From a virus, in IMG/VR virus record IMGVR_UViG_3300036806_000124, positions 1 to 44,505 of that record: a stretch of 44,505 bases of DNA. One strand, given 5' to 3'. Positions 1-44,505 of this stretch are shown here, piece by piece; position 1 is the first letter of the stretch, and every line of letters starts with the position of its first letter. The translations under genes were made by a program, and so were the position numbers. A model generated the notes under the pieces. It did no database searches. It was not told where the DNA came from and saw only the letters and a list, made by a program, of their open reading frames with translations.

Positions 1-127
1 TCTGGAACGCATTGCCGTTCGAAATCGTGGCCGTACTGTTCAGCGTGCCGCGCGCGATCGGGGCCTGCGCAAAGGCTGATCCCGCAAACAGGATGAAGGC
101 GAAGGTGATGAGCGCTTTGGCGAGTGT
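1..127. repeat. Left copy of 127-bp exact terminal repeat (circular assembly overlap)
   Basis: These 127 bases are identical to positions 44379-44505. An exact overlap of this length at both contig ends is what an assembler with a 127-base k-mer leaves on a circular molecule or on circularly permuted phage DNA. It lies inside a gene that reads smoothly across the junction, which supports artificial linearisation rather than a biological terminal repeat. The unique genome is 44,378 bp. Confidence 0.93.
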
Positions 128-133
128 TATCAC
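1..133 (-). CDS. Signal-peptide protein, 5' part (continues at 44378-44143)
   Basis: This is the beginning of a 122-residue protein cut by the linearisation point; the rest is at 44143-44378. It starts with GTG at 133, five bases after the TAG stop of the gene at 139-354. The first ~24 residues are a clear Sec signal peptide: a Lys near the N-terminus, a hydrophobic run (ITFAFILFAGSA), then an AFA-Q cleavage site. The mature part is small, Thr/Asn/Ser rich, and no family is recognised. It is the first of six consecutive genes with signal peptides. ATG is absent near this point, so GTG is chosen because it gives the complete signal peptide. Confidence 0.8.
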   Translation of the reverse strand, partial: MITLAKALITFAFILFAGSAFAQAPIARGTLNSTATISNGNAFQ

Positions 134-2065: not shown

Positions 2066-2107
2066 GGCCAATCCCATTCGTTCGGTTGAGACGAAAGTTG
2101 CTTGGCG

Positions 2108-22216: not shown

Positions 22217-22461
22217 GCAAAACCGATCACAACCCGTCGCTCTTGTTGATGATCCCTGCGTTGATGTGTGCCCCGCTCATAATCGGGGGCGTCCTTGCTG
22301 TGGGGAGCGCAATCGTCGCCAATAACATACTCAGTGGTTCACTCAGCCGGGCTGGGGCCAAATGGGTCGATGAACAGGAACGCGAGGCGTTCAAGGACTC
22401 GATAGATGAAATTGAGCCACGTTCGAATCCAACTCTCCGAGGCGAATGCTTTCGTCTCTGA
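22213..22461 (+). CDS. Small membrane protein (82 aa)
   Basis: GTG 22213 overlaps the lipoprotein stop (GTGA). Two closely spaced hydrophobic stretches (SLLLMIPALMCAPLIIGGVLAVGSAIVA, read as LLLMIPALMCAPLII and GGVLAVGSAIVA) predict membrane insertion, followed by a polar, charged tail. It overlaps the XF1762 gene by 56 bases. No family is recognised. With the lipoprotein it forms a small envelope pair. Confidence 0.6.
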   Translation: MSKTDHNPSLLLMIPALMCAPLIIGGVLAVGSAIVANNILSGSLSRAGAKWVDEQEREAFKDSIDEIEPRSNPTLRGECFRL

Positions 22462-22852
22462 GCACCACAGGCACCACAAGCCTGTCATCGGACATTTATT
22501 TTCAATCGGCGCGGTTATCAATGATGAGCTCGTTGGTGTTGCTATTGTAGGGCGCCCGGTGGCAAGAATGCGCGATGATGGCCTAACCGCTGAAGTCACG
22601 CGCCTATGCACGGACGGCACAAAGAACGCCTGTAGCTTCCTCTATGGCGCGGCGGCTAGGGCTGCCTTTGCACTCGGCTTTAAGCGCATCGGCACCTACA
22701 TCCTCGCTAGCGAGCCGGGAACATCACTGACAGCTACAGGATGGCGATTGATTGGGGAAACTAAAGGCGGATCGTGGTCGCGACCGTCACGCGGGCGTAC
22801 CGACAAGCATCCTATCGCACCTAAGTTCTTGTTCGAGAAAACAGCGAGTTAA
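22406..22852 (+). CDS. XF1762-family protein (GNAT-like)
   Basis: A 148-residue protein. AFVSEHHRHHKPVIGHLFSIG, VGVAIVGRPVARMRDDG, TAEVTRLCTDGTKNACSFLYG and TYILASEPGTSL form the near-invariant core of the XF1762 family, which is widespread in phages and has a GNAT acetyltransferase-like fold. The substrate is unknown. It starts with ATG 22406 inside the end of the previous gene. It is probably an accessory gene of the rightward transcript. Confidence 0.88.
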   Translation: MKLSHVRIQLSEANAFVSEHHRHHKPVIGHLFSIGAVINDELVGVAIVGRPVARMRDDGLTAEVTRLCTDGTKNACSFLYGAAARAAFALGFKRIGTYILASEPGTSLTATGWRLIGETKGGSWSRPSRGRTDKHPIAPKFLFEKTAS

Positions 22853-25337: not shown

Positions 25338-28300
25338 CTATTCGAGGGCCGGCGCGTGCTTCGGCTTGTCGGTATGGGTGACGCCTGTGATGTGGTCGAG
25401 TTTCTGCTTTAGGCCCTGCTGGATGAGGCTGGGATTGGCCGCCTGCATCGCGCCGGCCGCCATGTCGCGGGTGCTTCTTATGGCGCTCCGTAGGGCGGTC
25501 TCACGCACAAAATCAGGCTGTTCTTTCCAGCCGGGACTAGACACGATGCTATCGAGGGTCTGCTTGGTTAGAGTTCCCGCCACCGCCTGATAGCGGTCGT
25601 ACATTTCGGGTTCCATCTTGACCCCGCCAACGCGGTCTGACGGCGGTCCTGGGTGTATCTGCAGCCGGCCCATTTCCATGTTCACCGGATCATTGAGGGC
25701 TTGCCGTTGGCGTATGATGTTGCCGTATTGGGCATTGGGAATCGGCTCGCCCAGCCAATCGCGCTTCGGCAATATCGTCTCCCGCGCCCCCGGCACTACG
25801 GACTTAATGCCATCGAAGAAGGTCTTGACGTCGCGCATATAGGGATCGCGATAGCTTGCCGTTTGTCCCAGGAAGGAGGAAAACGGGACAAAGCTCCCGG
25901 CTGTCCTCGCCGCCCATTGGACGCCTTTCCTTTCCTCCTGCATCGCTTCGAATAGATTGGCGAGGGATTGGAACCCAACTTCGTCGACCATAAGCCTCGC
26001 CGCAGCATGAGCGGCCTGATAGGTGCCCTTGGTCATCGCATCATCGTCGCCGCCCTTTAACGTATGAACGACTTCCGCGATGTTCGCTGAGAGGTTAGCC
26101 AGATCGCCGGCCGGACCAAACTTGTTGTAGCTGATCCATGTATTCCCGATGAGCAGAGAGTTTGGCTGTTTGCCTGCGAGCTTCCATGCGTCACGCTCTT
26201 TCGGATCTAGCGGATAATCCCCCGTCGCGCGGCCCATCATCGCGTTCTGGACAAAATAACCCATGATCGCGCTACCAACCACCATGCGCGAGATTGCCTT
26301 ATCCTGCTTAACGCCGCCGTTCTTGCCCATGAGGTCAGCGCGCAGATCGGCGTCGAGCATCGCCAAACCGGTGTGCTCATAGGTCGCCTTCATCAAATTG
26401 ATCGGGATATGAAGGAACGGAAATATCCACTTCATTAGCGGAATTTCTTTGACCAATGCCTGAAACGCTTTCCCCTTCGGACCCAGGTCCGTCATAAACG
26501 TGCCTTTGTACGCACCCTCCACTGCGCGCTCGCGCATGGCATCTGTCGGGTTTTCTGCGTGGTCGCCCATGCGGTTCCAGAACTGGCCTTGTGTCGGGCT
26601 CAGACCTTCATCCGCCGCGGCGCGGTAGGCTTCGGCCTTGAGGCCGGCACGCTCACCGAGCACCTTGAAGAACGTATGAATGCCCATCGCGGCATCGCCT
26701 GGCGCTCCGATGATGCGCCCCCAAATGCCGTTCAATGGCACCACGCCAAACAGTTTGTCGGTCGGGCGCCCCTGCCCCGTAACCTGATTGACCGTGCGTT
26801 CCAGCGCCTTCGGAATCTTCGGCGGTTTCTCGCCGGCCGCGATCGCCTCATTGCGTGCGTCAAGGGCTGATTGGTAGAGATCGAGTTCGCTTTTCAGGAC
26901 GTATCGGCTTCCCGACGCTACAGACTTGGCAGACGCCATGAATGCTTCCGGCACCGCCGACACCATGCCCCACGTCGAGGCCATCGTTTCCCCGAAGAAT
27001 ACGCGGTCAGTCTCCGCGCCCATGAGCTGCTTTGCCTTACCGATAGTCGCGGCGATCGGCGGGACAATGCCGTTCTCGCTGACGGCGTATAGCGCGTTTG
27101 CAGCCACGTATTTCGTATGCGTCAGCCAGCCGGAAATAAGGCCGTTGACCCATGTCCAATAGAACGGCGCGGGCGCCTTTTTCTGCGCATCGCTCAAGAT
27201 ACGCGCGGCCTGTGTTCGATCGGCCTGGTCGATGAGGTCGGCAATGTCGCGCAGGTCTTGCGGTGTGTTGCCGGTCTTATCTTTAATGGTTTTGTTAAGG
27301 TCCTCTGCCTCGCGAATGTCTTTCATAAATTCCTGAAACACATTGCCTGTTCGGCCCCACTCGGCGCGTTGACCGACAATCTGTTCGACCGCCATATTCC
27401 GCCGCAACATAGACTCCTGGAGCGCGGCGAGGTTTTCCGGTGTTGCTTCCTCTTTGACGGCGCGAGCTGCGTCTTTTACATTCTCCGTGGCCTGCAGCAT
27501 GATCCGCATTCCGACGCGAACCTCTTGGTCATTGCGCATGAGACGGCCAACGCCTGTCGGGTCGACCGTTGAAGGCTCTACGCCTGCGGCGTCTGCCAAG
27601 CCCTCGACATGCGACAGCGGAATATCGCCCTGACGCGCTGCGGGAAAGTTATCGTTTTCCTGCGCCGCATCCCTGATTAACTGCTGCACATCGCCTGGCG
27701 TATCCAGCTTTCCGACAAACTGATTGAAACGATCTTCCCACGGGTTTGTTTCGCCGGGCGCCTCGCCCGTTACCTTCTCATCCTTCTGTGCGGCCGCCGC
27801 GAGTTTCGGCGCGGTCGCCTCAGTTGCCGCCTGCTCTGGCGTGCCTTCGCTCAGCTTGGGTTTCTGCGGACCGATAACATTGAGGTCGACGGCTTGCTCG
27901 ATCGGGCTTGGCTTTGGTGGCGCCTCAGCCTCGATTGCAGGCTTGGCCAATCGCGGTGACTCAAACATCCCTGTCGGCTTTGGCGAGCCCATGAAGGCTT
28001 CCGGCATGGCCACGAAATCGCGAGGCACGCCGGCCTCGATCAGCGCATCGCCAAAGGCATGATATATCGAGTTTGGGGTACGCCATGTCTTGTCGAGTTG
28101 CGCCACGGCGGGAATGAGAACGTTGTCGGCAAACGCTTTATACGTCTCATTGGTCGAGTCAGTGAGCCATTTTTTGTTTGCGTCAGAGAATCCGAAGGGC
28201 TCATCGCCGTAGCCTTCCGCCGCGCCGGATTTGAACCGATCGACAATGCGGCCGAAATAGCCTTTCGGTGTAGCCTCTACAGCGCCTTGCACGGCGGTTG

Positions 28301-28403
28301 TGAACAGGTCTTTTGGCGGCTGTATGACTTCTTGATCGGTCATTTCCCGCTGCGCAACCTGGGGCGGTTGCATTACTTGTTCATCGGTGAGCTCGTCGTT
28401 CAC
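25338..28403 (-). CDS. Large internal virion / DNA ejection protein (1021 aa)
   Basis: A 1021-residue protein at the place of the largest internal core protein in T7-like phages (gp16 position). The N-terminus has two near-identical short motifs (LTDEQVMQPPQ and MTDQEVIQPPK), then a disordered Pro/Lys/Glu-rich stretch. The C-terminal ~650 residues are helical with hydrophobic helices (LMKWIFPFLHIPINLMKATYEH region; MVVGSAIMGYFVQNAMM), which could form a channel in the host envelope. No lytic transglycosylase motif is seen. The 5' end overlaps the previous gene by 4 bases. The function is inferred from size, order and helix content. Confidence 0.75.
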   Translation of the reverse strand: MNDELTDEQVMQPPQVAQREMTDQEVIQPPKDLFTTAVQGAVEATPKGYFGRIVDRFKSGAAEGYGDEPFGFSDANKKWLTDSTNETYKAFADNVLIPAVAQLDKTWRTPNSIYHAFGDALIEAGVPRDFVAMPEAFMGSPKPTGMFESPRLAKPAIEAEAPPKPSPIEQAVDLNVIGPQKPKLSEGTPEQAATEATAPKLAAAAQKDEKVTGEAPGETNPWEDRFNQFVGKLDTPGDVQQLIRDAAQENDNFPAARQGDIPLSHVEGLADAAGVEPSTVDPTGVGRLMRNDQEVRVGMRIMLQATENVKDAARAVKEEATPENLAALQESMLRRNMAVEQIVGQRAEWGRTGNVFQEFMKDIREAEDLNKTIKDKTGNTPQDLRDIADLIDQADRTQAARILSDAQKKAPAPFYWTWVNGLISGWLTHTKYVAANALYAVSENGIVPPIAATIGKAKQLMGAETDRVFFGETMASTWGMVSAVPEAFMASAKSVASGSRYVLKSELDLYQSALDARNEAIAAGEKPPKIPKALERTVNQVTGQGRPTDKLFGVVPLNGIWGRIIGAPGDAAMGIHTFFKVLGERAGLKAEAYRAAADEGLSPTQGQFWNRMGDHAENPTDAMRERAVEGAYKGTFMTDLGPKGKAFQALVKEIPLMKWIFPFLHIPINLMKATYEHTGLAMLDADLRADLMGKNGGVKQDKAISRMVVGSAIMGYFVQNAMMGRATGDYPLDPKERDAWKLAGKQPNSLLIGNTWISYNKFGPAGDLANLSANIAEVVHTLKGGDDDAMTKGTYQAAHAAARLMVDEVGFQSLANLFEAMQEERKGVQWAARTAGSFVPFSSFLGQTASYRDPYMRDVKTFFDGIKSVVPGARETILPKRDWLGEPIPNAQYGNIIRQRQALNDPVNMEMGRLQIHPGPPSDRVGGVKMEPEMYDRYQAVAGTLTKQTLDSIVSSPGWKEQPDFVRETALRSAIRSTRDMAAGAMQAANPSLIQQGLKQKLDHITGVTHTDKPKHAPALE

Positions 28404-30040
28404 GGATTAGCCCAACCCGTTCCTGTCCATTTCTTATTGCCGTTCGGCGTGCGGTAGATTTCGCCGACCGTCCGCTGGTTCAACGGCGGCAGTTTGATGC
28501 TTTCGGTTTTCACGGGCTTTGTCTGCAGCATTTCCATCATGTTGCCGCTGATTTCGCCGCCGCCGCCGATACGCTTCATAATCTGACCCATCATCTTCTC
28601 TTGCGGCGTCAAGGTCAGCCCGGCCATCGATTGAGATATGAGTGATTTCGGATCACGGATGTCTAGCGCGTTGGCCGGCACAGTTCCGGCGCGTTGCTGC
28701 TTGAGATATTCTGGAATGAAGTTTTGCAGGAACGTTGCATAGCGTTCGTGCCCGAGGTCCGAGTCGCCAAATATGTTTTTTACAGCCGCCATCGTTCCCT
28801 GATATAGCGGTCCTTTAAGCGGTTGTTCCTCGAGCGCTTTGCTCAAGTTCATAAGTACCGAGGTATCATGCGCGTCGAGTTTTTTATCGGCTGCAGCCTT
28901 TAGAATGTCGACGTCGCTCGTTGGGTTATCTGTCCTGAATAGACCATCGTACAGGGAGGCATGGGTGGCCTTATCGGTGATGATCGTCTCGCGCTTTTCG
29001 CGCTGCTCCGACTGCCCCCAATTTATCATCGCCTTCGCGCGCTCAGTGGCCGCCCCTGGATATTGCTTTTCGATCTCCATAACGTTCTTGAAGAACTGCG
29101 GCTTGATCGTAACCTTGCCGTTCTCATCGAACGACACGCTATCGGTAAAGTTCTTGCTCAGGGAGCTGTGCGCCGAGTCGGCCTGTTCCTGCTTCTGGAA
29201 TTGGACTAATTGCTTTTGCGTCAGAAGGTTCGCCCGCTGCTGAGCCTGCGCATATTTTTCAAACTGCTTGATTTCAGCGCCGTCGATATAGCCAGAGAAC
29301 CTATCTTCATAGGCCCACTTCGGGATTGTTCCGGTCTTGTCGATCGTGCCAATGACGCCAGCCTTGACGATCGACTCCTTCATCTTCTGTGTGAGCTCAA
29401 GCTTGGCCTTGGACGCGGCGGTGCCCTTGATGTTCGGGCTGCTGTCGACCATGCCGCCTACTAGAGCATCCGTGCTGTCGAGCAAATGAGGGACAGACGA
29501 CGGGTCTTGCATCGCTGTATTCGATAGGCTGTTGGCGGTTTGCTTCATGTTGACGGAAACCGCATCTGCCGCCAGAGACGACATATCAGCCGCCGTCTTG
29601 GTGAACATATGATTGCGCAGCGCTTCGATACGCGCTTCGGCAAACTTCTGTCCGCCTTCCGTCAGGAAGCCTTTGCGGTATTGTTCAAGTGCAGGTTCAA
29701 GAACGCCCTCATTGAACTTCTCTGCCACTGTCGGATCGTTCGGGTCGGCCTTCTTTGCCGTGTCGTTCCAGACGTTTGTCAGGTTGTCGTTGAGTTGCGC
29801 GAACGTCGCGGCGCCGTGGCTTATTTCCTTGTGCTCAGCGTATTCAACCGCTACCTGGCCGGCGTCCTTTATGGCGCTGCTAAACCCACGCGCGGCTTCG
29901 TCGCCAACTTCCTTTTTGGCGCCTGCAACTTGATTGTAGAACCGGCCGATGCGGTTTGCCGCCTGGGCTGTCGCTTCAACACCAATCTCTGTCGGCTGCA
30001 GACCAAGAGCCGGGGCTTCGAATTGTTTAATTTGAGGCAT
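28400..30040 (-). CDS. Internal virion protein (T7 gp15-like position)
   Basis: A 546-residue, almost entirely helical protein beginning MPQIKQFEAPALGLQPTEIG, with long Ala/Gln/Glu/Lys-rich helices and a short C-terminal tail (RTVGEIYRTPNGNKKWTGTGW). Length and composition fit the middle internal core protein of podoviruses, which helps DNA cross the periplasm. It overlaps the 1021-residue gene by 4 bases and follows the small core protein at 30049-30564. Confidence 0.75.
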   Translation of the reverse strand: MPQIKQFEAPALGLQPTEIGVEATAQAANRIGRFYNQVAGAKKEVGDEAARGFSSAIKDAGQVAVEYAEHKEISHGAATFAQLNDNLTNVWNDTAKKADPNDPTVAEKFNEGVLEPALEQYRKGFLTEGGQKFAEARIEALRNHMFTKTAADMSSLAADAVSVNMKQTANSLSNTAMQDPSSVPHLLDSTDALVGGMVDSSPNIKGTAASKAKLELTQKMKESIVKAGVIGTIDKTGTIPKWAYEDRFSGYIDGAEIKQFEKYAQAQQRANLLTQKQLVQFQKQEQADSAHSSLSKNFTDSVSFDENGKVTIKPQFFKNVMEIEKQYPGAATERAKAMINWGQSEQREKRETIITDKATHASLYDGLFRTDNPTSDVDILKAAADKKLDAHDTSVLMNLSKALEEQPLKGPLYQGTMAAVKNIFGDSDLGHERYATFLQNFIPEYLKQQRAGTVPANALDIRDPKSLISQSMAGLTLTPQEKMMGQIMKRIGGGGEISGNMMEMLQTKPVKTESIKLPPLNQRTVGEIYRTPNGNKKWTGTGWANP

Positions 30041-30048
30041 CTATCGGC

Positions 30049-30564
30049 CTATACGAATAGAGTTGCGACGGCAGCGGCGCCTTTGATGCCCGCACTTATC
30101 TGACTGTTCTGAATGGCGCTGTTTGCCATTTTATCTTCTTCGGAAGCGGCATAGCGCGCGGCGCCTGCCATGTTCGTATAAGCGGACGCTTGTTCATTAT
30201 AACCGGCCTCAGTGATAAGACCCTGTTGGCCGAGAACCTGTTTTGTCAGCGCCCCTTGCTGTGCGGACGATCGCAACAGGTCAAGGGCGCTACCAGACTG
30301 TTGAAAGCCAGCGCCAGCAATGTCGGCCGTTTCCGTTCCGATCCCGAGGTATTCTTGACGTTGAGCTTGCACTTGTTTGATTTCGGTGGATTGTTCGGTG
30401 AACGCTGAATTTTGTTTTGCGAGGCCAGAGGCCAGATCGAAGTCCTGCGCTTCGACAAGATCGCCGTGAGATTTTAGGCGCAATTGCGCCGCGGTCGCCT
30501 TGCCTTGGAATAGGTCGGAGACGGCGCCACCAATGTCGCTGAATGTTGAGTTGCCGAATGCCAT
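30049..30564 (-). CDS. Internal virion protein (T7 gp14-like position)
   Basis: A 171-residue helical protein starting MAFGNSTFSDIGGAVSDLFQ, with small-residue-rich helices (GAGFQQSGSALDLLRSSAQQGALTKQ region) and a hydrophobic C-terminal end (GIKGAAAVATLFV). This is typical of the small ejection protein that inserts into the outer membrane. It lies between nozzle and gp15-like genes, the expected order, and starts one base after the... nozzle stop codon region. Confidence 0.78.
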   Translation of the reverse strand: MAFGNSTFSDIGGAVSDLFQGKATAAQLRLKSHGDLVEAQDFDLASGLAKQNSAFTEQSTEIKQVQAQRQEYLGIGTETADIAGAGFQQSGSALDLLRSSAQQGALTKQVLGQQGLITEAGYNEQASAYTNMAGAARYAASEEDKMANSAIQNSQISAGIKGAAAVATLFV

Positions 30565-33500
30565 TTATTGATCCTCAGTTCTGAGGAAGCCGCCGATCGC
30601 GGCGACCGTCGCGGGATATGGCCGCGAGATTTGCCAGCAAACCATGCTGTCCATGCCTGGGCTTTTAGAATCGGTCAGCGCTTGGCGCCATAGACCTGAG
30701 AACAATTGCAGCGGCGTATATGCGGTGCCGCCAGGCGTCGTGAAATTCGCATTGTTCATCTTGTCGAAAGAACCGCCAAATTTAATTCCCTGAGTGTTGT
30801 TCAGCATGACCGCAATTAAATCTGTACGCTGGAACTTGCCGAAGCCGGGACCAATGCGCGCACCACTTTCCTGCTGGTTCGCCGCCCGCACAATCTGCCC
30901 TTGTGACGTGTAAGTGAAGCCAGCCAGGCACGGCATAGCCCCGGCGTAGTTAGAAACGAATGCCGACGTGAACAGACCACTCGCCGCGCCGAATGTCACC
31001 ACCACGGCGCCGTTCGATACGGCGTAGTCTCCTAGGTCGAGGCCTCCGGCGACGATGGTCACGTTCGCGCCATTTAGGTGCCATAGGCCGTAGAAGGTGA
31101 CATTGCTTCCCGTCGCCACGTACGCGGACGGAACAACAGCATCATCCAAGAACCAGCCATCAACCAGGGTATCCGTTTCCTCGAACTGATCGACTAGCAA
31201 TTCGACATGCCGGACTAGCGTGTTCGGATCAAACGTAATCATTGCCAAACTGTCGAGCGTGCCGTCGTGGTTCGGACCGACGCAAATGCTGTCGACCAAG
31301 CGACCGGAGCCTAATGTGTGGCGATGCCAGCCGTTGAACGTTGGACCTTGCGAAGTCATCAACGTGTCGCGCTTGTAGGTCATCCCGACAAGCTTCCCGT
31401 TGTTCAAGCGTGCCCACATGATCGGAGTTAGTTCTTGCTGATAGGCAATTTCGGCAATTCCCGAAACTGATAGATGCTTCGCTTTTTCCGAAAGGTTCGG
31501 CGCCGTGAACTTTCCCGAGAAGATATCGGCAAAATATTCGACTAGCTTGCGAGCAAACTTCTGGACAATTACGAGTGTGTGTTCGGCGCGGCGTGGCTCG
31601 ATATTCGCGCAACCGATACGGGTCACGCGATGCGCTTGAATGTTGACCGGCGTCAAAGGGTTATTGAGTGCTGATGCCTGCACCAGCCATTCGCCGGATT
31701 GCGTGCCTACAATGATGCCCTGATGATCGGGCGTCATGTGAAAAATCTTGTTAACCTCTTGGGCGTCGAACGTGTAATCGATCGCGTTCGCGTCCGTTAC
31801 CGTGCCGTCCGGTTTGGTCGGCTCAAAACTGACGCTCTGCAGGATGCCATTCGGATCCAGAGTGATCGGAACACTGCCGTCAATGCGGTTGCCAATTGTT
31901 CCGGATAGCCACAAGCGACCTTCATGGTAGGTGCCACATGACGGCCAGCCGGTCACGGAGTTGAGCAGCCCCATGCGCCATGTCCGAATAGCCGATGTCG
32001 ATGGTAGCGCTTGTCCGAATATGTCGCATGTCACGCCAGCCGTTCCGCCGCTGCCTGGCGCGATAAATTGCACCTGAGCAGCGGTCGCCGTCGTCTGGAA
32101 GGGCGTGTTTAGATTGCCCTGCATCAGTACGTTAATATCGAACCACACGTAGCGATAGGTATTGATCTGATCGTTAGACACGATCGTAACGGTATTGACA
32201 CCGAGCACGGTTGTCGCCGATGCGCCAGGCGAACCGATAATGTCCTGAGCATCTTTGCGTTCGGTATAGACTCCGAGTGCCGTGCCGTCTGAGGGAGTTG
32301 CCGGCGCACTGCTATTCTTGCCGCGCAGCGTGACCGTCAATACTGTGCTGCACCCAGGCGGCACTTGCGGCAATGGGCTGTTGCCGAGCGCTATACCGAA
32401 ATCGGTGGATGGCACAAGCGATGCTGACGCAATCAACCGTGGCGTGCCGCCGAAGTCTTTTCCGACATATCCCTCAATGGTCGATTGAAAGGCGGGACTG
32501 ACAACCGAGATGATCGTAGCGGACTGTGCGTTTGGTTTTGTCAGATTGCCGTCGAATGCGGCCGCCAAGCCACCATTGGTAGTCATGTTTCCTATGTTTG
32601 ATGATCCGGCCGGATTGGCTGGAATGATGTTCAGGAGGCCGGTGATCTTGCCCCACGTCCATACAGATGCGGTTGCATTGATCGCCCACTTGGTAATGTC
32701 CGTGCCTGGCAATGTGCCAATGGTCGCGCCAAGCGCCGTATAATAGGCGCCGTTATACGTGACCGCATTGCCAGCGACGTAGTTGGTGGCCGCTGACCAT
32801 AGCGGCGGTTCGGACAACAACCGAATGTGCCGCCCGATATCCGTTGGCTGGAATCCGTTGGGACCAACCGCCTCAGTCGGCGAAGCGACCCGCCACTGCG
32901 TCGGACTAGAAGCCGGCGTGTTGTTGATATTTAAGTCAACAAGCGATCGGTAGCCGATGCCAGCCGATGTCACCATATCGCCGATCGTATAGACGGTCGT
33001 CGCCGAGTATGCGGGCAATGTCAGCGTCAGGTTGATCGAGCCACTGATGGCCGAAGGCGTGAGCTGCGCCCCGCCCGTCACAGGGTCCAGATACGGACCG
33101 TCCTTGAACAAGGCCGGGACTAACTGAAATTCGGCAAAGTTGATGTTCGTCGGCTCCTTGGTCACAGAAAGCAACTGTGGTGCCACCAAGGGATGCAGAA
33201 GCACGGCGTTGACCTCTGCTTGCACGATGCGAAGTGCGGTCCATGTCGTACCGCCGTAGGTCGTAGCTATTTCCAATACCCGCGTCACATTGCCAGATAC
33301 AAAGCTTCCGAGCGTCGAGCCATCGATGTTTGTCCCTGTGATTGCATCGGCAATCGTAAACTTCGTGGACGACGTAACCGTGATGACAAACTGCCGGTTA
33401 TGCAAAAGCGGATTGTTGACACCAAGCGAGTTGAACATGACCGTATTGCCGGTCGACCATCCATGCGTTCCGGTAGTCACTTCGGCGGGATTTGCTGCGG

Positions 33501-33822
33501 AAATGGCCGTCACGGCCTGCGCATCATTGGTAGGCACAAGCGTCGGCCCGTTAAAGAACCGAAGCATGTTATCGGTGAACTCCATGTTGTATGGAGCATC
33601 TTCTTGAAACGTAAATGCGATCAGCCGGCCAACTTTGGCTCCGCGAGTAGTTGCGCAGAAGCGCGAACCAGATCGGCGTATCCATGCGCCGGGTTCGATC
33701 GGGTAGCCATTCAGGCAGGCGTTCATCGCCGTCTTATATTTAGGCTCCGCAATGGCGCCTTGAGCGGTCTGCGACCACTCACCGCCTAAGAAGCTGCTAA
33801 CGACGAAATTGGCGTCGGCCAT
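30565..33822 (-). CDS. Tail nozzle protein (T7 gp12-like) with inserted carbohydrate-binding-like modules
   Basis: A 1085-residue protein. The N-terminal SSFLGGEWSQTAQG, then ACLNGYPIEPGAWIRRSGSRFC and LIAFTFQEDAPYNMEF match tail tubular protein B/nozzle proteins. It is longer than T7 gp12 (794). Two extra modules near residues 270-310 and 342-385 have the pattern YSATTVYTIGDMVTSAG and WSAATNYVAGNAVTYNG, resembling ChtBD3-type carbohydrate-binding domains. A late GGFLRTEDQ end closes the protein. It forms the distal tail tube and may also touch host glycans. The neighbours are gp14-like and gp11-like genes. Confidence 0.85.
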   Translation of the reverse strand: MADANFVVSSFLGGEWSQTAQGAIAEPKYKTAMNACLNGYPIEPGAWIRRSGSRFCATTRGAKVGRLIAFTFQEDAPYNMEFTDNMLRFFNGPTLVPTNDAQAVTAISAANPAEVTTGTHGWSTGNTVMFNSLGVNNPLLHNRQFVITVTSSTKFTIADAITGTNIDGSTLGSFVSGNVTRVLEIATTYGGTTWTALRIVQAEVNAVLLHPLVAPQLLSVTKEPTNINFAEFQLVPALFKDGPYLDPVTGGAQLTPSAISGSINLTLTLPAYSATTVYTIGDMVTSAGIGYRSLVDLNINNTPASSPTQWRVASPTEAVGPNGFQPTDIGRHIRLLSEPPLWSAATNYVAGNAVTYNGAYYTALGATIGTLPGTDITKWAINATASVWTWGKITGLLNIIPANPAGSSNIGNMTTNGGLAAAFDGNLTKPNAQSATIISVVSPAFQSTIEGYVGKDFGGTPRLIASASLVPSTDFGIALGNSPLPQVPPGCSTVLTVTLRGKNSSAPATPSDGTALGVYTERKDAQDIIGSPGASATTVLGVNTVTIVSNDQINTYRYVWFDINVLMQGNLNTPFQTTATAAQVQFIAPGSGGTAGVTCDIFGQALPSTSAIRTWRMGLLNSVTGWPSCGTYHEGRLWLSGTIGNRIDGSVPITLDPNGILQSVSFEPTKPDGTVTDANAIDYTFDAQEVNKIFHMTPDHQGIIVGTQSGEWLVQASALNNPLTPVNIQAHRVTRIGCANIEPRRAEHTLVIVQKFARKLVEYFADIFSGKFTAPNLSEKAKHLSVSGIAEIAYQQELTPIMWARLNNGKLVGMTYKRDTLMTSQGPTFNGWHRHTLGSGRLVDSICVGPNHDGTLDSLAMITFDPNTLVRHVELLVDQFEETDTLVDGWFLDDAVVPSAYVATGSNVTFYGLWHLNGANVTIVAGGLDLGDYAVSNGAVVVTFGAASGLFTSAFVSNYAGAMPCLAGFTYTSQGQIVRAANQQESGARIGPGFGKFQRTDLIAVMLNNTQGIKFGGSFDKMNNANFTTPGGTAYTPLQLFSGLWRQALTDSKSPGMDSMVCWQISRPYPATVAAIGGFLRTEDQ

Positions 33823-33823
33823 G

Positions 33824-35098
33824 TCAGGCCCTACATTCTATGTAGTCGTCCAATGGCGGTTCTGTTGCGCCTTCCTCGATCGCGTTGACGAGTCGCGCTT
33901 CGCCCATGAACCTGTTGTATTCAGAAGCACAGGTTTGGATTAGTTGGTTCGATTGTGTGAGCGGCTGACACGTCGCGACGGCAAGCCGGCAGGCAAGCCC
34001 TTCGCAAAACATATCGTCCATATCTGACACCTTGGTGATGTCAGCGACAAACCGAAGGATGATCGGACCGCCATCTGATGTAACAATGAAACTGCTGTCC
34101 AATTTCCAGTCGTTGTACGGCAATCCACCAGGCGCTCCGAGCGATGATGTAGAACCAGCCTTTGGGTCCGCCGGCGCCTCGCGCAAAAATCCGGCTGGCA
34201 ACCAGAATACATTTCGCGTTGCGCTCTGAGAGAATGGCCCCGAACCGACAGGATAAAGGAAATGCGGGTTCTGGATCGTCGCTGCAACAGGCCGCCATTT
34301 GGTCGAACTGGTGATAATCGTCGGTGTGCGCGACCAACCGTTGGCGACGTGCGTGTTTGTCCAATGCACACCGGCATCTGTCGTCGGATCATGGCCGATG
34401 TTGCCGTTCCCGACAGACGAATAGATGAAATTGTCGGAGGCCGTAACGGTCTGCGCAATGCTGTAAGTTGCCCCAATGTCAAAGGCAGCGGGACCATCGG
34501 CCGGCGTGATGCCTTTGTTGAATGGGATCAGGCTTCGCCAATTCGACCCAGCCGACGTTACAACGTCATTCGTTTGGTAGGTGGCCGTTGGATCATAGGC
34601 GGTGCCTACCTTTGGATCATCGCTGTTGGCATTTTGTAGCGACATATAAACCTGATAACTGCCGGGGTCCGCGCCAGCCTCATAGACGAGCTCGCCAGAG
34701 GAATACGTCGTCGTGCTGTCAAAGATCGAAACAGTCAGCGGGCCGAAATACATATCCCATACGTCGGTGTCGCCAGGATTGTTGTTGATGTTATTTGGCG
34801 TGTTCGAAATCCAGTAAACGCCGTTCGCGTCCCTGACGATCGCCCCTGACAAATAGAGCGTGGCCGCGTTATAGAGCGCGGGAACGATGAGCATTGTCGT
34901 CGTATCGATTGCGCGGATAACTGCCGTCTTGACAGAAAATCTCCAGACATTGCGGCGCAATTCTGCGCGACGAACCTTGTCGTATGCAAACGACATTTCA
35001 TTGTTCGCTTTGCTGTCCTCAGTCGGCGTGGCAATCTTGTCGACCCCAAGATGCTGCAGACCGCGATTGGCAACGTCGAGGCTGTCGATGAAACCCAT
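33824..35098 (-). CDS. Tail adaptor (T7 gp11-like, tail tubular protein A) with inserted modules
   Basis: A 424-residue protein, about twice the size of T7 gp11 (196). The N-terminus (DVANRGLQHLGVDKIATP, VRRAELRRNVWRFSVK) and C-terminus (FCEGLACRLAVATCQPLTQS, YNRFMGEARLVNAIEE) are the usual adaptor core that joins portal to nozzle. Between residues ~70 and ~250 lie about four repeated modules of the pattern Y-(D/N)-x-x-(T/A)-x-Y-x-x-G/N-x-x-V, like the ChtBD3-type inserts in the nozzle. One base separates it from the nozzle gene. Confidence 0.85.
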   Translation of the reverse strand: MGFIDSLDVANRGLQHLGVDKIATPTEDSKANNEMSFAYDKVRRAELRRNVWRFSVKTAVIRAIDTTTMLIVPALYNAATLYLSGAIVRDANGVYWISNTPNNINNNPGDTDVWDMYFGPLTVSIFDSTTTYSSGELVYEAGADPGSYQVYMSLQNANSDDPKVGTAYDPTATYQTNDVVTSAGSNWRSLIPFNKGITPADGPAAFDIGATYSIAQTVTASDNFIYSSVGNGNIGHDPTTDAGVHWTNTHVANGWSRTPTIITSSTKWRPVAATIQNPHFLYPVGSGPFSQSATRNVFWLPAGFLREAPADPKAGSTSSLGAPGGLPYNDWKLDSSFIVTSDGGPIILRFVADITKVSDMDDMFCEGLACRLAVATCQPLTQSNQLIQTCASEYNRFMGEARLVNAIEEGATEPPLDDYIECRA

Positions 35099-37730: not shown

Positions 37731-38435
37731 GTGTCCGTAAAATTACTCTCTAAAATAGTGCGTCCGGTCCTGCGCAAGTATGGATACGACATTTGTTGGG
37801 CGCATGAGCGCCGCGATCCGTTTGATGACATGAAACGGTTAAGCGTCGAATCGCCAGTCATTTTCGACGTTGGCGCCCATTTTGGCGAAACAATAATACG
37901 CTTTTATAAGGCGTTTGATCGGCCAACGGTTCATGCCTTCGAACCGTCGAAGGAGTCCCATAATATCCTCAAGCGCGAATGCGAGACATTCCCTAATCTG
38001 ATTGAAAATAATCTGGCGCTAGGGGCGACCCGTGGGACGATGCGGCTACTCGAAAACGAGAATACTTACATGACCTCGTTTTTGGAGCTTGGCCGTGACG
38101 GAAATGGCCAAATCGTCAATTGCACAGCCGTTGGCGTCGATACGATCGACGATTATTGCAAGGAACGTGGTATCGATCGTATCGATATTCTGAAATCAGA
38201 CGCGCAGGGCTTTGATCTCGAAGTCCTCAAAGGGGCGCAAAGAATGATGAAACGTGGTGCCATCAACCTCGTATATCTCGAAATCAATTTTGCCGAAATC
38301 TACAAGAACTCACCCGCCCCGGATGAAATACTTGCCTTCATGCGACAGCGTGGCTTTTCTCTCGTTACTTTTTATCGATTGTTCTATGTCAACGGTCGTT
38401 TGGGTTGGACCGACGCGCTATTCAAACGCGACTAA
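37731..38435 (+). CDS. FkbM-family methyltransferase (moron)
   Basis: A 234-residue methyltransferase on the strand opposite to the surrounding late genes. [16 protein letters not shown] near residues 43-58 is the S-adenosylmethionine-binding motif [14 protein letters not shown] follows. The [16 protein letters not shown] and VYLEINF segments are diagnostic of the FkbM family, which O-methylates sugars and other small hydroxyl groups. The GTG start at 37731 gives the full domain. Its TAA overlaps the TAG of the converging tail gene. Probable lysogenic-conversion gene modifying a host surface glycan, which could alter phage receptors. Confidence 0.88.
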
Positions 38436-41400
38436 GCCGCCTTGTTTAAGAATGCCGGCGAATTATCGTTAGCTGCCGGATCGAGGTCGCGCTTGAGCAG
38501 GTAATTGTGCTGCGCCTGCGCACAGCTACTACCGCCAAAGCAAACATAAAACTTATTCCAGATCACGCCATCAGAGGCCAACACCAGCGGATTATCCATG
38601 CTGCCGGTGATGTAATCCCCAACCTTTGTCCAAGTTGGCCCCGCCTTCATTGCCCCGCTTGCCGATGTTTGGCTGGCGCTAACTGTCCAAGTAGTCCCGC
38701 TGCCGCCTGTGATAGTTGCAGGGATGGTTACGTTTGATCCATAAACGCTCTGACCAATTGCGATCGGATCGCCTGAAACACCTGACACCGTAAGAGTTGT
38801 GCCAGAGATTGAGCCGGTAAATGCTGAAATAGGCGCATCGGCATTTGTTGAACGAAATACTCCGAAAGGCCAAAGGCCGTTGCCTGAAAGATCAACCCAA
38901 CCGACAAAGTGCATGGTTGGATATGTCTTGCCGGGAGCGATTGCGCCAAAGTCAAATGCCAAGGGCTCCGCAGTTCCCGGCACTCCAGTGAATGTTACAA
39001 ACCCGTCCTTGCTGCGCCAAAGCTGATTATTGAATGAAGGGTGAGGATCGCCCGCCCCGCCTTGCGTCCCAGACCCTATGAATAGGTGGCCTGCATTGCC
39101 TGGAACGGATTTAAACTTGGTGTTTTGCTCTGGCACAACAAAGGTGCTGTTATTCTGAACCGGTGTTCCGCAACTATCAATTTGATACATACCGGCATTT
39201 CCCGCACCTGTCGGATTACCACCGGCGTAAGCATAAAATCTGTGTGGCGTTACACGATCAGCGACAACAGTTTTCTGCCAAAAGAAAAAGTACGAGTTTG
39301 ACCATCCGATATAATTTACGGCACCCATGTTTTCGGAAGCGACAGTTTGAGAGTTATTGATTGTCCATGTCGTACCGCTTCCTCCTGTAATCACTGTTCC
39401 TGCCGTGATTGCACCTGCCCCTAACTGGAATAGCGTCTGACCAATAGCCAATGTGCCATGTGAGACTGAAGTGACAGTAAGGGTCGTGCCAGATATAGAG
39501 CCGACAAATATTGCCGGGCCCATTATCTCATGCCACGTCTGCCCTCCGTCCATTGTGCAAAGAGGAACTGACCCGTCAGCAGGAATGATCATAATATCGT
39601 TTGTGCTGTTTGACGCGATCGTGCCACCGCGTTGAACAGGAAACCAGTTTGCATTTCCGCCGCCAGTATAAGCGTGGGTGAATGTCGATCCTTGAAGGTC
39701 AAATGTATTCGAGCTAAAATTTGCAGTCAGCCAGCATCCGTTTGCTTCGGTTGTTCCAAGAACTCCTTCAATACATACTGGCGCGTTATTTGACCCGCCA
39801 TTACTGGTATTGAGAACGCTTATTCGAATTGCCCCGCCCCCATTGTTAGCTACAGTTGTAATAGCCCAACATGACGCATTGGTGCATCCCCAATTCGTAA
39901 CAGGGGTCTTGTCGATGTAAACAAGCGCGCGGCCTATATTTGAACTGCCATTTGTAAATGTGAATGTCGAGGTAAGAACAATGTGCGTAGCGTCGGCAAC
40001 ACAGACGTAAGCAAATCCAGACTCGTTTGGCACGCCTCCGTTAGGTGTCGAATTGTATCTGATAATATGAACGATTGTTCCACTTCCAGCACTCCAGCTT
40101 GTGTAAGCAGCGGTAGAAGGAATCGTTATCTGTTGCAATCCCGACGCGCCGCACGCGCCGCCCGCATAGCTGGTAATGGCTGTGGTCGCATCCACATCGT
40201 TATAGCTGGAATTGAAAGGCTTTAAGGTTATGCCACCGTCTGTTGATGTTCCCGCATACTGCGCATTCGAGAAAATCGTATTCATATCCAAGTAAGCAAC
40301 AAAATTATTGTTGCCGGGAACGTAATCGTAACCGAAACCAACGTTGAACACGCTGTTGTTGTTGTAGTCAGGATTGTTTTGCGTGGATGGGTAAACGTTC
40401 GGATTTGTAAGCGTAAAATTGGCGCGGTCTTGAAAAGACGCCATAAGGTAACCAAACGGGGCTATTCCGGCAGTACTAACTAACTGTTCGATCCCGGCCG
40501 TCATTGACGTCCAAGTATTTGCGCTTCCTGTTGGGCTTGTCGTCCAGACGCCAATGCCTTGGCTAAAGATCAGGAAGTTGCTCTTGCTGCTATCAAACTG
40601 AACATCACCACTCGACATGAAAAATTCGTTAGTCAATGCGAGCCAAGGCACGTCAATTGCCGCGCGGATGAAACCAGCATCGCCCCCAAAGGTAGGTGGA
40701 GAGCCAGTGACACCATTTGCACTTATCGCAATGCCGCCGCTTTCATCATTGATAATGACGCGCTCTGAATTAGACGGGTCAACCGCGACCGTATGCCAAT
40801 TTGTCCCGGCAGCAGTAATCTTAAGCCAAGTACCAGACTTTAGCCGCCACAGATCGCCTGCTGTTTGGCCCGGATTAGGCACAGCGGGATTAGGAACATC
40901 AACCGACCAGACGATACTGCTGGTAGGTGATATAACCATGTGCTGGCCCGCTTGTGGACCGCCAGTTGTTGCAGCAAATGTGCTGCCAGCATTATTCGAT
41001 ACATACATCGACGTGCCAACAGGCTGGATATAAATACCATTGGTTTTTCCGCCGGTTGATCCAGATGATGGATCAAAAGCAATATTGTAATTTCCCGAAT
41101 TTGTTGATGTTGGAATTGTGGCCGGCGATAAAGAGGTAAAGCTTGTCCCTCCATTCGCCGTTACAAATACGCCATTGTTATCAGTGCCAACGTAGAGGAC
41201 GTTGCAGTTGATTGGATCAACTGCCATCTTGCGGCCTGCCATACGCCAAACACTGTTGGCACCAGAGGCTACACTAGCAAAAGCCGTCAGTGTCCATTTG
41301 GCAGTTCCCGCCAGAACATTGGAAACAGTCATGTTGGTTGATGAGAATATCAACCCGTTATAAAACATGTAGGCGGTAGCTGTATTGGCAGGACAGGCAG

Positions 41401-41719
41401 CTATCTCAATTACACCACCAGCATTCTGACTAACCTGGCTCGTGCCGGTTGTTGGAAAGAACCCAAAGTTGGCAGCCGGCATCGTTGATTGCGTAACCAC
41501 CTGCAACCATGTTGAAGTTGCAGAATTATAAATGTACCCACCATAGCCATCGGTACGAGCCAAATAATTACTACCGACAATATCGATCCCGACAACCCAA
41601 CCGCCGCCACCGATCTTAGCTGCTTTTTCAAAATTGCTCGTGGCACCGCCATGTGTCCACCCCCCGCAAATGGCGATCACAAATAAAATAAAAAGAGGTC
41701 GGAAAGCTACCCATTTCAC
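38432..41719 (-). CDS. Large secreted-type beta-propeller protein, GH74-like
   Basis: A 1095-residue protein starting at GTG 41719, which overlaps the previous stop (GTGA). Residues 1-28 are a Sec signal peptide ([15 protein letters not shown] core). Directly after, [15 protein letters not shown] and [14 protein letters not shown] match the opening of GH74 xyloglucanase-type propellers. Asp-box-like turns recur ([36 protein letters not shown]). Two copies of an inserted module beginning [10 protein letters not shown] lie near residues 738 and 966. Predicted to be an extracellular glycan-acting or glycan-binding protein, perhaps a tail component. Catalytic aspartates are not assigned. Confidence 0.78.
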
Positions 41720-42639
41720 GGAGTGCCCCAATAATTATGTTGATTGGCATTCATGGCACTATTGCTGGCGCTCTGATCGCCGTCCCACACGGCCATTTCC
41801 GTAACCGTTCCATTATGATTGCCAAAGCAAAACCCGATGTTAATGAAGGCCGCAGTGTTTCCAAAATCAGCAGCGCCAGGATTGAGAGAACCGGTCAAAC
41901 TACCATCCATATAGATCGAGGATGACGCACCGTTAAAAAGACTTTGTGCCGCATGAAGCGTACCGTCAGACGCGGTTACGCTCACATTCGAGCCCGCAAA
42001 ATTTGTCCAGGTATTTGCACCGCTACCAAATCCGGTAACAAGGAAACTGCCAGTACTGCAAAGAACGTCTGCTTGAGTTGTTATGCCAGTTCTCTTTGCA
42101 ACATCAGAAACCCAAAATGGCTGTGTGAATTTTGGATTCCCAAAATGGTCGGCAGGCTGATAAAATTGGCTACTTGCAGCAACAAAAGTTGCGCAAAATT
42201 TTCCCGTAGGGGTGCAATTGTGAGTAAGAGTGGCACGCGCCGAATTGGTCGCCTGAACACTGTCACAAACACCAAAACAACGGCTGCTGCCTGTTAAATC
42301 ATACCAAGTAGCGATTACACAGGTGTCACTTGTGGCACAGTTGTTGGCGCCGCGCGTCGTAACGACAATATCGCCAGTTGATGCATCAGAACTTGCATCT
42401 GCACAATTAGCGCCAGCGTTGTCGCAAAGATTTATAAGCTTGTTACCGCGCGTTGCAGCGCTCATAGCCCGCAGGCTGTAAACAAGGCCGGGACTTGCAA
42501 CTACGTCAGCCACCCCCTGAAAAGGAGCGCTGCCACTAATAGAAACATTGTAGTTGCTGTCGCGGGATTGCCAAAAGCTATCGGCAGTCGCGCCCCAAAG
42601 ATACGCGAGCGCGACTACGGCTAGACGTAGGAATTTCAC
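41716..42639 (-). CDS. Secreted-type lectin/glycosidase-like protein
   Basis: A 307-residue protein starting at GTG 42639 (GTGA overlap with the previous gene). The N-terminal [16 protein letters not shown] is a signal peptide. Conserved features [39 protein letters not shown] and repeated Cys pairs resemble the catalytic domain of arabinofuranosidase B (GH54) and concanavalin A-like modules; the last third ([20 protein letters not shown]) is LamG-like. The cysteines suit the periplasm or outside. It could bind or cleave plant- or bacterial-type arabinose/galactan polymers. Confidence 0.75.
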
Positions 42640-43415
42640 AGCTTGTAACCCCATGCCGTCACCGAAACGACACCGCCCGCTCCTGGCGCAGCCGAAACGA
42701 CGGCAATTGATGTGTTGGTCGCGCTCGCCGGCACGCACGGCGTAAAGATTTGCTCTACCACGCCAAGCCCGGAAGCAAGCGGCGCGGTCCATTGCGTGTA
42801 GTTCAGTGTGCCCGTAATCGTGCCGGTGACTGTCGCGTTACCCGTTGCCGCCGCTGTCGCATTGGCGCGGATCGAAAATCCACAAATGTACGTCGTTACC
42901 GATGCCGCGCCCGCCAATGTCGCGGTCGTCGCGGTCGTCGTGCCTGTCGCCGATGCCGTGTAAGGAACTGCGGTCCCTGGGTATTGGCTGATACTATCGA
43001 CCGCGCCGATGTTCGTTGTGTGGTTCGCCTGGGCCGGAATCGCTGCGCCCGTGTTCGTCGCAATCGTGGCCAGAGATCCTATCTCTGTCGCCTGATTGGC
43101 CGAGGTCGCCGCGCCAGTTGGCAGCGAGATCGTTCCAGCAATGTTGTTGATGTTATTTGTGGCGCCAGTGAGCTGCGCCGCGAAGGTGCCCGTGCCGACA
43201 ACAGTCGCATTGAGGTTCGCCGCCGTCCCTTGTGTGACCGCAGTCGTGCCGCTGAACAATACGACGTTGGGCAAGCAATTGCCCGATCCGTCGTCGCTGA
43301 ACTTCGCGTTCGGTGTAACACCCGCATTGTCTTTCAACTGCAAGGTTGAGGGACATACGGCGAGCGCCGGCGCCGCGAACAGGCAAAGTGTGAGCGCGAG
43401 GATTATGCGTTTCAT
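42636..43415 (-). CDS. Signal-peptide protein, Thr/Ala-rich beta repeat
   Basis: A 259-residue protein with an obvious Sec signal peptide (MKRIILALTLCLFAAPALA, cleavage near residue 19). The mature part begins CPSTLQLKDNAG, followed by short repetitive Thr/Ala/Gly-rich strands and a C-terminal Cys-containing beta region. This resembles phage-encoded appendage proteins found near fibres in Bradyrhizobium phages. No enzymatic motif is visible. It is located between the small Gly-rich protein and the GH54-like protein. Confidence 0.72.
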   Translation of the reverse strand: MKRIILALTLCLFAAPALAVCPSTLQLKDNAGVTPNAKFSDDGSGNCLPNVVLFSGTTAVTQGTAANLNATVVGTGTFAAQLTGATNNINNIAGTISLPTGAATSANQATEIGSLATIATNTGAAIPAQANHTTNIGAVDSISQYPGTAVPYTASATGTTTATTATLAGAASVTTYICGFSIRANATAAATGNATVTGTITGTLNYTQWTAPLASGLGVVEQIFTPCVPASATNTSIAVVSAAPGAGGVVSVTAWGYKL

Positions 43416-43416
43416 C

Positions 43417-43623
43417 TTAGGTTCCCGTCATAAGCCCGATGAGGTTGCAGGCGTTTGATGCGTCGAGCTGCGTGGTGATGAGGCAGTTGCCGCCGCCACC
43501 GCCGCCACCGGATCCCGTGGCGCCGCCGATGCGGATACCGATACCCTGGTTGCCGCCAATCGATTGTGCGAGCGCGATTGCGCTCCACAACAGCGTGGCG
43601 ATGATGATGATGTGCCGCAGCAT
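43417..43623 (-). CDS. Signal-peptide protein with Gly-rich run (68 aa)
   Basis: A 68-residue protein, ATG 43623 overlapping the previous TGA. A signal peptide (LRHIIIIATLLWSAIALA) is followed by a Gly run and a Cys-containing tail (ITTQLDASNACNLIGLM). A longer start lies six residues upstream and is rejected. The function is unknown. Confidence 0.68.
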   Translation of the reverse strand: MLRHIIIIATLLWSAIALAQSIGGNQGIGIRIGGATGSGGGGGGGNCLITTQLDASNACNLIGLMTGT

Positions 43624-44171
43624 CAGCGCGCCCTTCGGCAACGCAGGAAGCCGTAGCCCTTGTCTGTCGATACGGTGAATGTGTCGTCAGCGACGAGGAA
43701 CATGCTTGTCGTCGCGTTCAGGCTGACACGCACCGGCCCGATGACATGCGTATAGTCCGTCACCGGTACTTGCGCCGGCGTGGAGCGCTGCACCATCGTC
43801 CCAGTCGCAAGTGATCCGTCCGCTGCCGTCGTGGTACTGAGCGACGTCTTGAGGATCGTGACCGACGTGGTGGCGCCGAACGTGCGCGTTGCGCCGGCCG
43901 AGCATTCCCAATCTCCCGCCGTCAGTGAAACGCTGGTTATGTTCGCGGGAGTCGCTGTCGTGAGCGTGACTGCCGATCCCGATACGATGCTCGATGAAAT
44001 AAATTCGCCGACAAAGCCTGACGCCGCGTTGTCGTTTGTCGCCGTTCCCGGCACTTGGCCGGGGACGATGATGCCTGACGTGGCTATGCCATCGGCCAAC
44101 GCTGGCGCCGAAAGCGCAAGCAGCGCGGCGAGGACGGCAAGCCTACTGCGTATCGATGTAGAGCGTGTCAT
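43623..44171 (-). CDS. Signal-peptide beta protein (182 aa)
   Basis: It begins MTRSTSIRSRLAVLAALLAL with a positively charged start, a hydrophobic core and an APALADG cleavage site. The mature part is beta-rich, with an Ile/Val/Thr pattern (SVTILKTSLSTTTAADGSLATG). It ends with a Cys and an Arg-rich tail. ATG 44171 lies 28 bases upstream of the previous gene's stop, in another frame. No family is recognised. A carbohydrate-binding or adhesive exported protein is likely. Confidence 0.72.
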   Translation of the reverse strand: MTRSTSIRSRLAVLAALLALSAPALADGIATSGIIVPGQVPGTATNDNAASGFVGEFISSSIVSGSAVTLTTATPANITSVSLTAGDWECSAGATRTFGATTSVTILKTSLSTTTAADGSLATGTMVQRSTPAQVPVTDYTHVIGPVRVSLNATTSMFLVADDTFTVSTDKGYGFLRCRRAR

Positions 44172-44505
44172 TGGTTGTGGCACACGTCGCGTTGATCTGA
44201 TCTGACGGCAGATAGGGGTAGTAGCGTTGATAGCTGCCACCCGAACCCAAAAGGATCGATGTGCCTTTTGTTGCCGATGCGAGCGGGCCGATGAATAACC
44301 AGCAACTATCGCCGTTGGTGTTGTTGTTCTGGATCGTGAGGGCCTTGCGCCCGCTCGATGCAACAGAGTTCAAAACAGTCTGGAACGCATTGCCGTTCGA
44401 AATCGTGGCCGTACTGTTCAGCGTGCCGCGCGCGATCGGGGCCTGCGCAAAGGCTGATCCCGCAAACAGGATGAAGGCGAAGGTGATGAGCGCTTTGGCG
44501 AGTGT
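44143..44505 (-). CDS. Signal-peptide protein, 3' part (start at 133 across the junction)
   Basis: The major portion of the 122-residue signal-peptide protein; the window's end cuts off only its first two codons, which are present at 128-133. The visible protein has the AFAQAPIARG cleavage region, then SSGRKALTIQNNNTNGDSC, a beta-rich middle, and ends NDTLYIDTQ. The reading frame is continuous when 44378 is joined to 1, which is strong support for circularity. Confidence 0.8.
   Translation of the reverse strand, partial: TLAKALITFAFILFAGSAFAQAPIARGTLNSTATISNGNAFQTVLNSVASSGRKALTIQNNNTNGDSCWLFIGPLASATKGTSILLGSGGSYQRYYPYLPSDQINATCATTNDTLYIDTQ
44379..44505. repeat. Right copy of 127-bp exact terminal repeat
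   Basis: Identical to positions 1-127. It should be removed when the genome is circularised. Confidence 0.93.

Follow-up and report, generated by a model that had tools for sequence, protein, structure and literature searches.

A cassette of six adjacent late genes for predicted exported, glycan-directed proteins in an uncultivated soil phage

The record IMGVR_UViG_3300036806_000124 belongs to an uncultivated soil phage, and its whole stretch of 44,505 nucleotides (the window) was analysed. Amid the virion-building genes lies a cassette of six genes, here named A to F, whose frames are all confirmed, consecutive and on the minus strand. We propose that they make up an accessory cassette whose genes are coupled in translation and whose products are exported. 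In our reading, to which we give a probability of roughly 0.58, A to F are glycan-binding or glycan-degrading proteins that pass through the general secretory (Sec) pathway, are freed at lysis and act on polysaccharide apart from the virion. The material consists of metagenomic contigs with genes from a simple gene caller, and the loci of relatives and other phages used for comparison bear L-numbers (L101 is phage BcepC6B and L100 is phage PBR31).

Signal peptides were called with a home-made predictor that combines a von Heijne matrix with tests of the hydrophobic h-region and of the charge of the n-region. On two 50-kb stretches of E. coli K-12 it called 22 of 23 exported, 0 of 46 cytosolic and 7 of 22 inner-membrane proteins. 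The products of A to E score 14.8, 10.7, 9.2, 13.0 and 8.2, respectively, and each has a positive n-region, a hydrophobic core and small residues at -3 and -1, as expected for Sec export and signal peptidase I. F has the strongest hydrophobic core of the six (3.63) and the charge, with a weak cleavage site (best score 3.3-6.2, by the position allowed); its signal peptide is probable, and its homologue in L085 is called signal-positive by the same predictor. A previous sequence-only reading had described six consecutive late genes with Sec signals: five are clear, and the sixth, F, is probable only. No lipobox was seen in A to F. The predictor found no comparable signal in any other late gene of the window, and one gene of the replication region is a marginal call (h 1.63). 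Were signals spread at random over six of about 58 genes, all six would be neighbours with a probability of about 1e-6. A chance origin of the signals was rejected on the calibrated predictor, this adjacency and the cysteine statistics given below. Apparent signals in head genes of relatives (a 140-amino-acid family starting MWQGRV, and the small terminase) were set aside as false positives.

The arrangement of the genes fixes their starts. A and B overlap by 29 base pairs (bp), the ATG of C lies on the stop of B, D begins one base past the TAA of C (TAAGATG), D and E overlap by 19 bp, and the GTG of F overlaps the stop of E as GTGA. From B onward, each gene thus either overlaps the one before it or begins just after its stop. 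Since the five junctions overlap or abut, the starts that give the signals are the coupled ones, and wrong start codons were rejected as their source. Of the coordinates first assigned, that of D stands and those of A, B, C, E and F are corrected. The starts are now at 44171 (B), 43623 (C), 42654 (E) and 41719 (F), the last being a GTG in place of the TTG at 41731 of the listed open reading frame. The ends of the record carry an exact direct repeat of 127 bp (1-127 = 44379-44505), a typical assembly-overlap length, and the best reading of the record is therefore a circle of 44,378 bp. Gene A accordingly spans 133..1 joined to 44378..44143; to take it as 44143-44505 plus 1-133 counts the repeat twice.

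Cysteines provide evidence on whether these signals are used, since proteins oxidised in the periplasm should have them in pairs. The mature proteins A to F contain 2, 2, 2, 4, 10 and 12 cysteines, all even numbers, and their cysteine content is 1.68% compared with 0.52% in sixteen other late proteins (3.3-fold, p 4e-6). The same holds among the relatives, where even counts occur in 60 of 68 cysteine-containing exported proteins versus 269 of 639 (42%) non-exported ones (p 3e-11). Within single families the cysteines follow the signal. Twelve of the 13 E-family members with a signal have 6-12 cysteines, whereas all five without one have 0-1 (p 7e-4), and the cysteine pair of the D knob, present in most signal-bearing proteins, is missing in the signal-less proteins of L016 and L021. 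The pair of B (DWEC/RCRR) is found, always both or neither, in four relatives with a signal and in 0 of 49 without; at these positions the tail fibres that lack a signal carry V, L or I and A. Over all B-domain proteins, cysteine content is 1.08% with a signal and 0.49% without, with even counts in 22 of 28 and 14 of 32, respectively.

Two further comparisons concern the signal itself. In the E family the signals are 30-56% identical, whereas identity over the first ten residues of the mature protein reaches 80-100% in five of six members. Within the loci searched, the mature N-terminal motif of the family occurs six times, each time at the predicted cleavage point. These alignments thus place a conservation boundary at that point. 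A second motif, W-x-H-G, is also conserved at the mature N-terminus. Among the F homologues, the N-termini are of the Sec type in F and L085 and of the twin-arginine translocation (Tat) type in L093 (SRRSFL) and L104 (SRRHLL), the latter assignments being by motif only; the kinship of L104 with F is given by a profile match of 98.3% (E 1.4e-14). From these patterns the export signals appear to be used, and export is well supported by sequence.

Two of the products had been described as resembling glycan-active families (GH74-like and GH54-like), and both likenesses are supported, for F by a GH74 profile and for E by a predicted GH54 fold and by family profiles. F matches solved xyloglucanases with an E value of 3.7e-15 by phmmer and of 1.5e-51 by its family profile, which aligns over most of both halves of the GH74 propeller. 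D61 and D435 of F fall in the two catalytic aspartate columns, the counterparts in CtXgh74A being D70 and D480. By this alignment F is a member of the GH74 family with both catalytic aspartates kept; in the same alignment the L093 homologue lacks the second catalytic column. Like the GH74 xyloglucanases (PDB codes 6p2m, 6p2l and 2cn2/2cn3), F has both propeller halves and both aspartate columns, but it differs from them in its insertions, its C-terminal tag and its phage operon context. Against named phages, F gave two weak partial matches only.

The AlphaFold2 model of E (mean predicted local distance difference test score 81) superimposes on the GH54 structure 1wd3 with Z 22.1 and a root-mean-square deviation of 3.2 over 252-255 residues, compared with Z 16.7 for the next family. 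The E-family profile of 18 sequences matches 1wd3 in the PDB with E 1.7e-10; a profile from four sequences gave no PDB match. Seven of the 18 members match PF09206 (best 6.9e-15), and E of the window itself does not. E is therefore, as modelled, a protein with the GH54 catalytic-domain fold. It shares this predicted fold with GH54 alpha-L-arabinofuranosidases (1wd3, 6sxt), but at 14-15% identity and without their arabinose-binding C-terminal domain. The profile alignment spans residues 19-87 of 1wd3, and the GH54 catalytic residues are Glu221 and Asp297. E may be a lectin or an enzyme. A scan of bacterial genomes for the E family yielded one weak partial match, in a Blautia metagenome-assembled genome, with no link to a host or prophage.

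B consists of a tail-fibre tip domain (phrog_11393, E 2.9e-14) that follows the signal almost directly, with no N-terminal virion-attachment region, and it matches tail fibres of named phages. The C-terminal domains of the tail fibres of Klebsiella phage KpV74, Pectobacterium phage PPWS1, Erwinia phage VL73 and Enterobacter phage Mulvp2 are homologous to it (31-38% identity), but those fibres have no signal peptide, long N-terminal parts and no cysteine pair at the positions of B. D has a fibre-like shaft that is not confidently modelled and a beta-sandwich knob, whose structure matches (Z 6-8) are too weak for a family name. D and E have no match in named phages, and A and C no named match. 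Homologues of A with signals occur in L070, L082 and most of L131-L138, and the L131 protein at the place of C also begins QSIGG after its signal. None of A to F matches a peptidoglycan hydrolase or spanin in Pfam or PHROG; such a blank does not prove that they have no lysis function.

Short terminal sequences recur in the exported proteins. The mature N-terminal motifs FWQSRDS and WxHG stand at the cleavage site of otherwise unrelated bodies, and a C-terminal tag of 24 residues, including (S/A)PxxLxxAA, is likewise common to exported proteins with unrelated bodies. The bodies that bear these tags are GH74 (F, L085), deacetylase-like (L071), GH54-like (L133) and two large proteins (L219, L220) that read as beta-helical and have no Pfam match. 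Every tag carrier whose N-terminus is visible has an export signal, that of F being weak. The C-terminal tag is limited to a few phage proteins in the loci read, and searches of plasmids and of phages gave no match for it. Nor did the N-terminal motif of an exported L087 protein match any named phage. These distributions hint at a docking or sorting role of the tags. The exported L071 (deacetylase-like) and L133 (GH54-like) proteins share another mature N-terminal motif, VTPQIGG....DGG.

We propose the following course of events. The products would appear late, alongside the virion proteins, and the host Sec system would carry them across the membrane, with Tat-type export for some relatives of F, a step strongly supported by the signals. 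Signal peptidase would cut the signal and the mature proteins would form disulfide bonds in the periplasm, as the cysteine data support. The bodies would be directed at glycans, as homology supports: a GH74 enzyme in F, a GH54-fold domain in E, and fibre tip or knob domains in B, D and possibly A. The proteins may then accumulate in the periplasm, be released at lysis and act in soluble form outside or on the envelope. There they could bind and cut polysaccharide of the surface or the matrix, which would help progeny to get clear of debris and biofilm or keep them from re-adsorbing. The sequence-only reading had offered secretion for action on polysaccharide as one option, and as far as sequence goes this agrees with the export signals, the paired cysteines, GH74 in F and GH54 in E.

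Several observations weigh against this proposal. The export, processing, activity and non-virion status of A to F are predictions from sequence. The cleavage site of F is weak, the particular cysteine pair of B is missing from most signal-bearing B-domain proteins, and the E domain of L109 has a signal and one cysteine. The profile alignment of E does not reach the catalytic Glu and Asp, so E may be only a binding domain. The domains of B and D also occur as tail-fibre domains, which leaves room for a virion role, and GH74 and GH54 enzymes usually act on plant hemicellulose.

The main rival, which we hold to be unlikely, is attachment to virions after lysis: once exported and disulfide-bonded, the proteins would add a second layer of fibres or depolymerases to the released particles. 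The tip and knob domains of B and D would suit such a layer, as would the place of the cassette, where head genes give way to tail genes and relatives differ in gene content; FWQSRDS, WxHG and the C-terminal tag could be docking tags. However, no virion-attachment domain was recognised and the domain of B begins soon after the signal. Signal-less fibre or spike genes are already present in the window, in BcepC6B and in PBR31, and we know of no precedent for this route in tailed phages. Less probable again is that the proteins remain periplasmic or coat the outer membrane, where they would block adsorption or modify the surface polysaccharide of the host. An O-antigen-polymerase-like protein in L085, an exported deacetylase-like protein in L071 and the FkbM methyltransferase gene adjoining the cassette suggest that surface-modifying functions may cluster, but late expression shortly before lysis leaves little time for such a coat, and A to F have no lipobox.

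That the cassette is a secreted set for degrading plant polysaccharide (xyloglucanase, arabinofuranosidase) for a soil host, hence a group of carbon-metabolism genes, we regard as quite improbable. In its favour, GH74 and GH54 are mainly families of plant hemicellulose enzymes. A soil-virus chitosanase has also been reported to show enzyme activity (PMC9485262). Against it, the genes lie inside the structural operon, share tail-fibre domains and would be expressed too late to feed the host, and no match found marks C or D as an enzyme. The other option of the sequence-only reading, virion proteins that have export-like N-termini but never leave the cytoplasm, would explain the tail-fibre homology of B and the location in the structural operon, but we consider them very improbable, as even cysteine numbers, cysteine pairs that come and go with the signal, the exchange of Sec for Tat and conservation at the cleavage point would be pointless in the cytoplasm.

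Of the relatives, 44 distinct ones span the whole capsid-to-tail interval; at least two strongly predicted exported genes lie there in four of them and exactly one in none, which argues that the cassette is an accessory module; gene content at this site varies among relatives. In other phage backgrounds, the A-B-C order is found again in L131, and both A and D are present in L082 and L132. L085 retains D-E-F, as does L104, where F is of the Tat type. L105 has nine consecutive signal calls, of which the first and last are weak. Endolysin genes follow the cassettes in L082 (GH108), L085 (M15 peptidase), L105 (phage lysozyme) and L110. A signal is present in 30 of 79 classifiable proteins with the B tip domain. 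The cassette had been called unusual, which stands for named phages but not for environmental phages, where such cassettes recur. We found no description of them in the literature, which is weak evidence of novelty as most subscription journals lay outside the search. Within the L085 cassette, L085:5814-6797 encodes a multi-pass membrane protein that resembles O-antigen polymerases or ligases by eye and has no Pfam match. L082:2237-3730 (497 amino acids), beside exported A, D and E-like genes, has a Tat-type signal (SRRKFLL) and SGNH-esterase-like motifs, with no Pfam or PDB match.

Known exported phage proteins include signal-arrest-release endolysins, spanins, Lom and Bor of lambda, and XepA of PBSX. 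Like the cassette products they are phage-encoded and act in or beyond the envelope, but they are single proteins of lysis, exclusion or conversion, whereas the cassette is a run of fibre-like and glycan-active proteins. Closer to it are two cultured phages with one exported B-domain protein each, gp19 of Burkholderia phage BcepC6B ('tail fiber protein', L101:2353-3426) and orf035 of Xanthomonas phage PBR31 ('putative structural protein', L100:4650-5459). Both have the tip domain of B and a clear N-terminal signal, and both genes lie after the fibre or spike gene and before those for holin, endolysin and spanin; they differ from the cassette in being one gene instead of six and in lacking the DWEC/RCRR pair. 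Their annotations do not mention the signals, and the genome section of the PBR31 paper mentions a signal only for the esterase gp40 (PMC10975493).

On the usual view, the virion and receptor-binding proteins of tailed phages are products of the cytoplasm. The present data suggest that some phages release their own set of secreted proteins around infected cells. If this is true, part of the interaction between phage and polysaccharide would run through free proteins common to all progeny. This would matter for how biofilms are cleared, for plaque haloes, for soil glycoside hydrolases now classed as metabolic genes and for the use of 'tail fibre' in annotation. A broader and doubtful idea is that modular glycan-active proteins give tailed phages of soil bacteria a second apparatus, outside the cytoplasm. 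They would assemble among themselves, with the envelope or with virions after release. Each such protein would consist of an export signal, an N-terminal tag exposed by cleavage, an exchangeable catalytic or binding body and sometimes a C-terminal tag.

Table 1. Features of the window and sites of the C-terminal tag.
Feature	Position	Strand	Remarks
Gene A, 5' part	1..133	-	GTG start at 133; signal peptide 68-133, MITLAKALITFAFILFAGSAFA, then QAP; continues at 44378
Gene A, 3' part	44143..44378	-	122 amino acids in all; mature protein with 2 cysteines
Gene B, 182 amino acids	43623..44171	-	signal peptide MTRSTSIRSRLAVLAALLALSAPALA, then DGI; tail-fibre C-terminal tip domain with cysteine pair (DWEC / RCRR)
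Gene C, 68 amino acids	43417..43623	-	signal peptide MLRHIIIIATLLWSAIALA, then QSIGG; short Gly-rich mature protein, 2 cysteines
Gene D, 259 amino acids	42636..43415	-	signal peptide MKRIILALTLCLFAAPALA, then VCP; fibre-like shaft (low confidence), C-terminal beta-sandwich knob with cysteine pair
Gene E, 312 amino acids	41716..42654	-	signal peptide, then predicted GH54-fold domain, 10 cysteines
Gene F, ~1095 amino acids	38432..41719	-	probable signal, GH74-family body, 12 cysteines, C-terminal tag
C-terminal tag sites	38432-38510 (3' end of F); L071:5294-5365; L219:3820-3891; L220:5001-5093; L133:7970-8041		
Major capsid protein (head)	1145-2077	-	no signal peptide
Three small head genes upstream of cassette	581-1132, 365-577, 139-354	-	no signal peptides
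Tail and internal virion protein genes downstream	33824-35098, 30565-33822, 30049-30564, 28400-30040, 25338-28403	-	no signal peptides
Fibre-like protein, 467 amino acids	35696..37099	-	no signal peptide; assigned from N-terminal sequence
FkbM-type methyltransferase	37731..38435	+	PF05050, E 1.6e-24

The virion genes are of the T7-like podovirus type, on the minus strand, in the order terminase subunits, portal, scaffold-like gene, major capsid protein, three small genes, cassette, tail proteins, internal virion proteins and lysozyme. By capsid protein the closest named relatives are an uncultivated phage (43%) and Pelagibacter phages (35-38% identity). The fibre-like protein of 467 amino acids is, from its sequence, a candidate for the ordinary virion fibre of the phage. 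A scan for promoters and terminators was uninformative. The lysogeny implied by the sequence-only reading finds nothing in the sequence to show it, the integrase match being weak and a Pfam integrase match absent. The FkbM-type methyltransferase gene, on the strand opposite to all late genes and overlapping the end of F by four bases, is probably an independent accessory gene, and possibly one for surface modification. A match to a Mom-like DNA-modification family lies at 22406-22852 on the plus strand (phrog_1384, E 5e-37).

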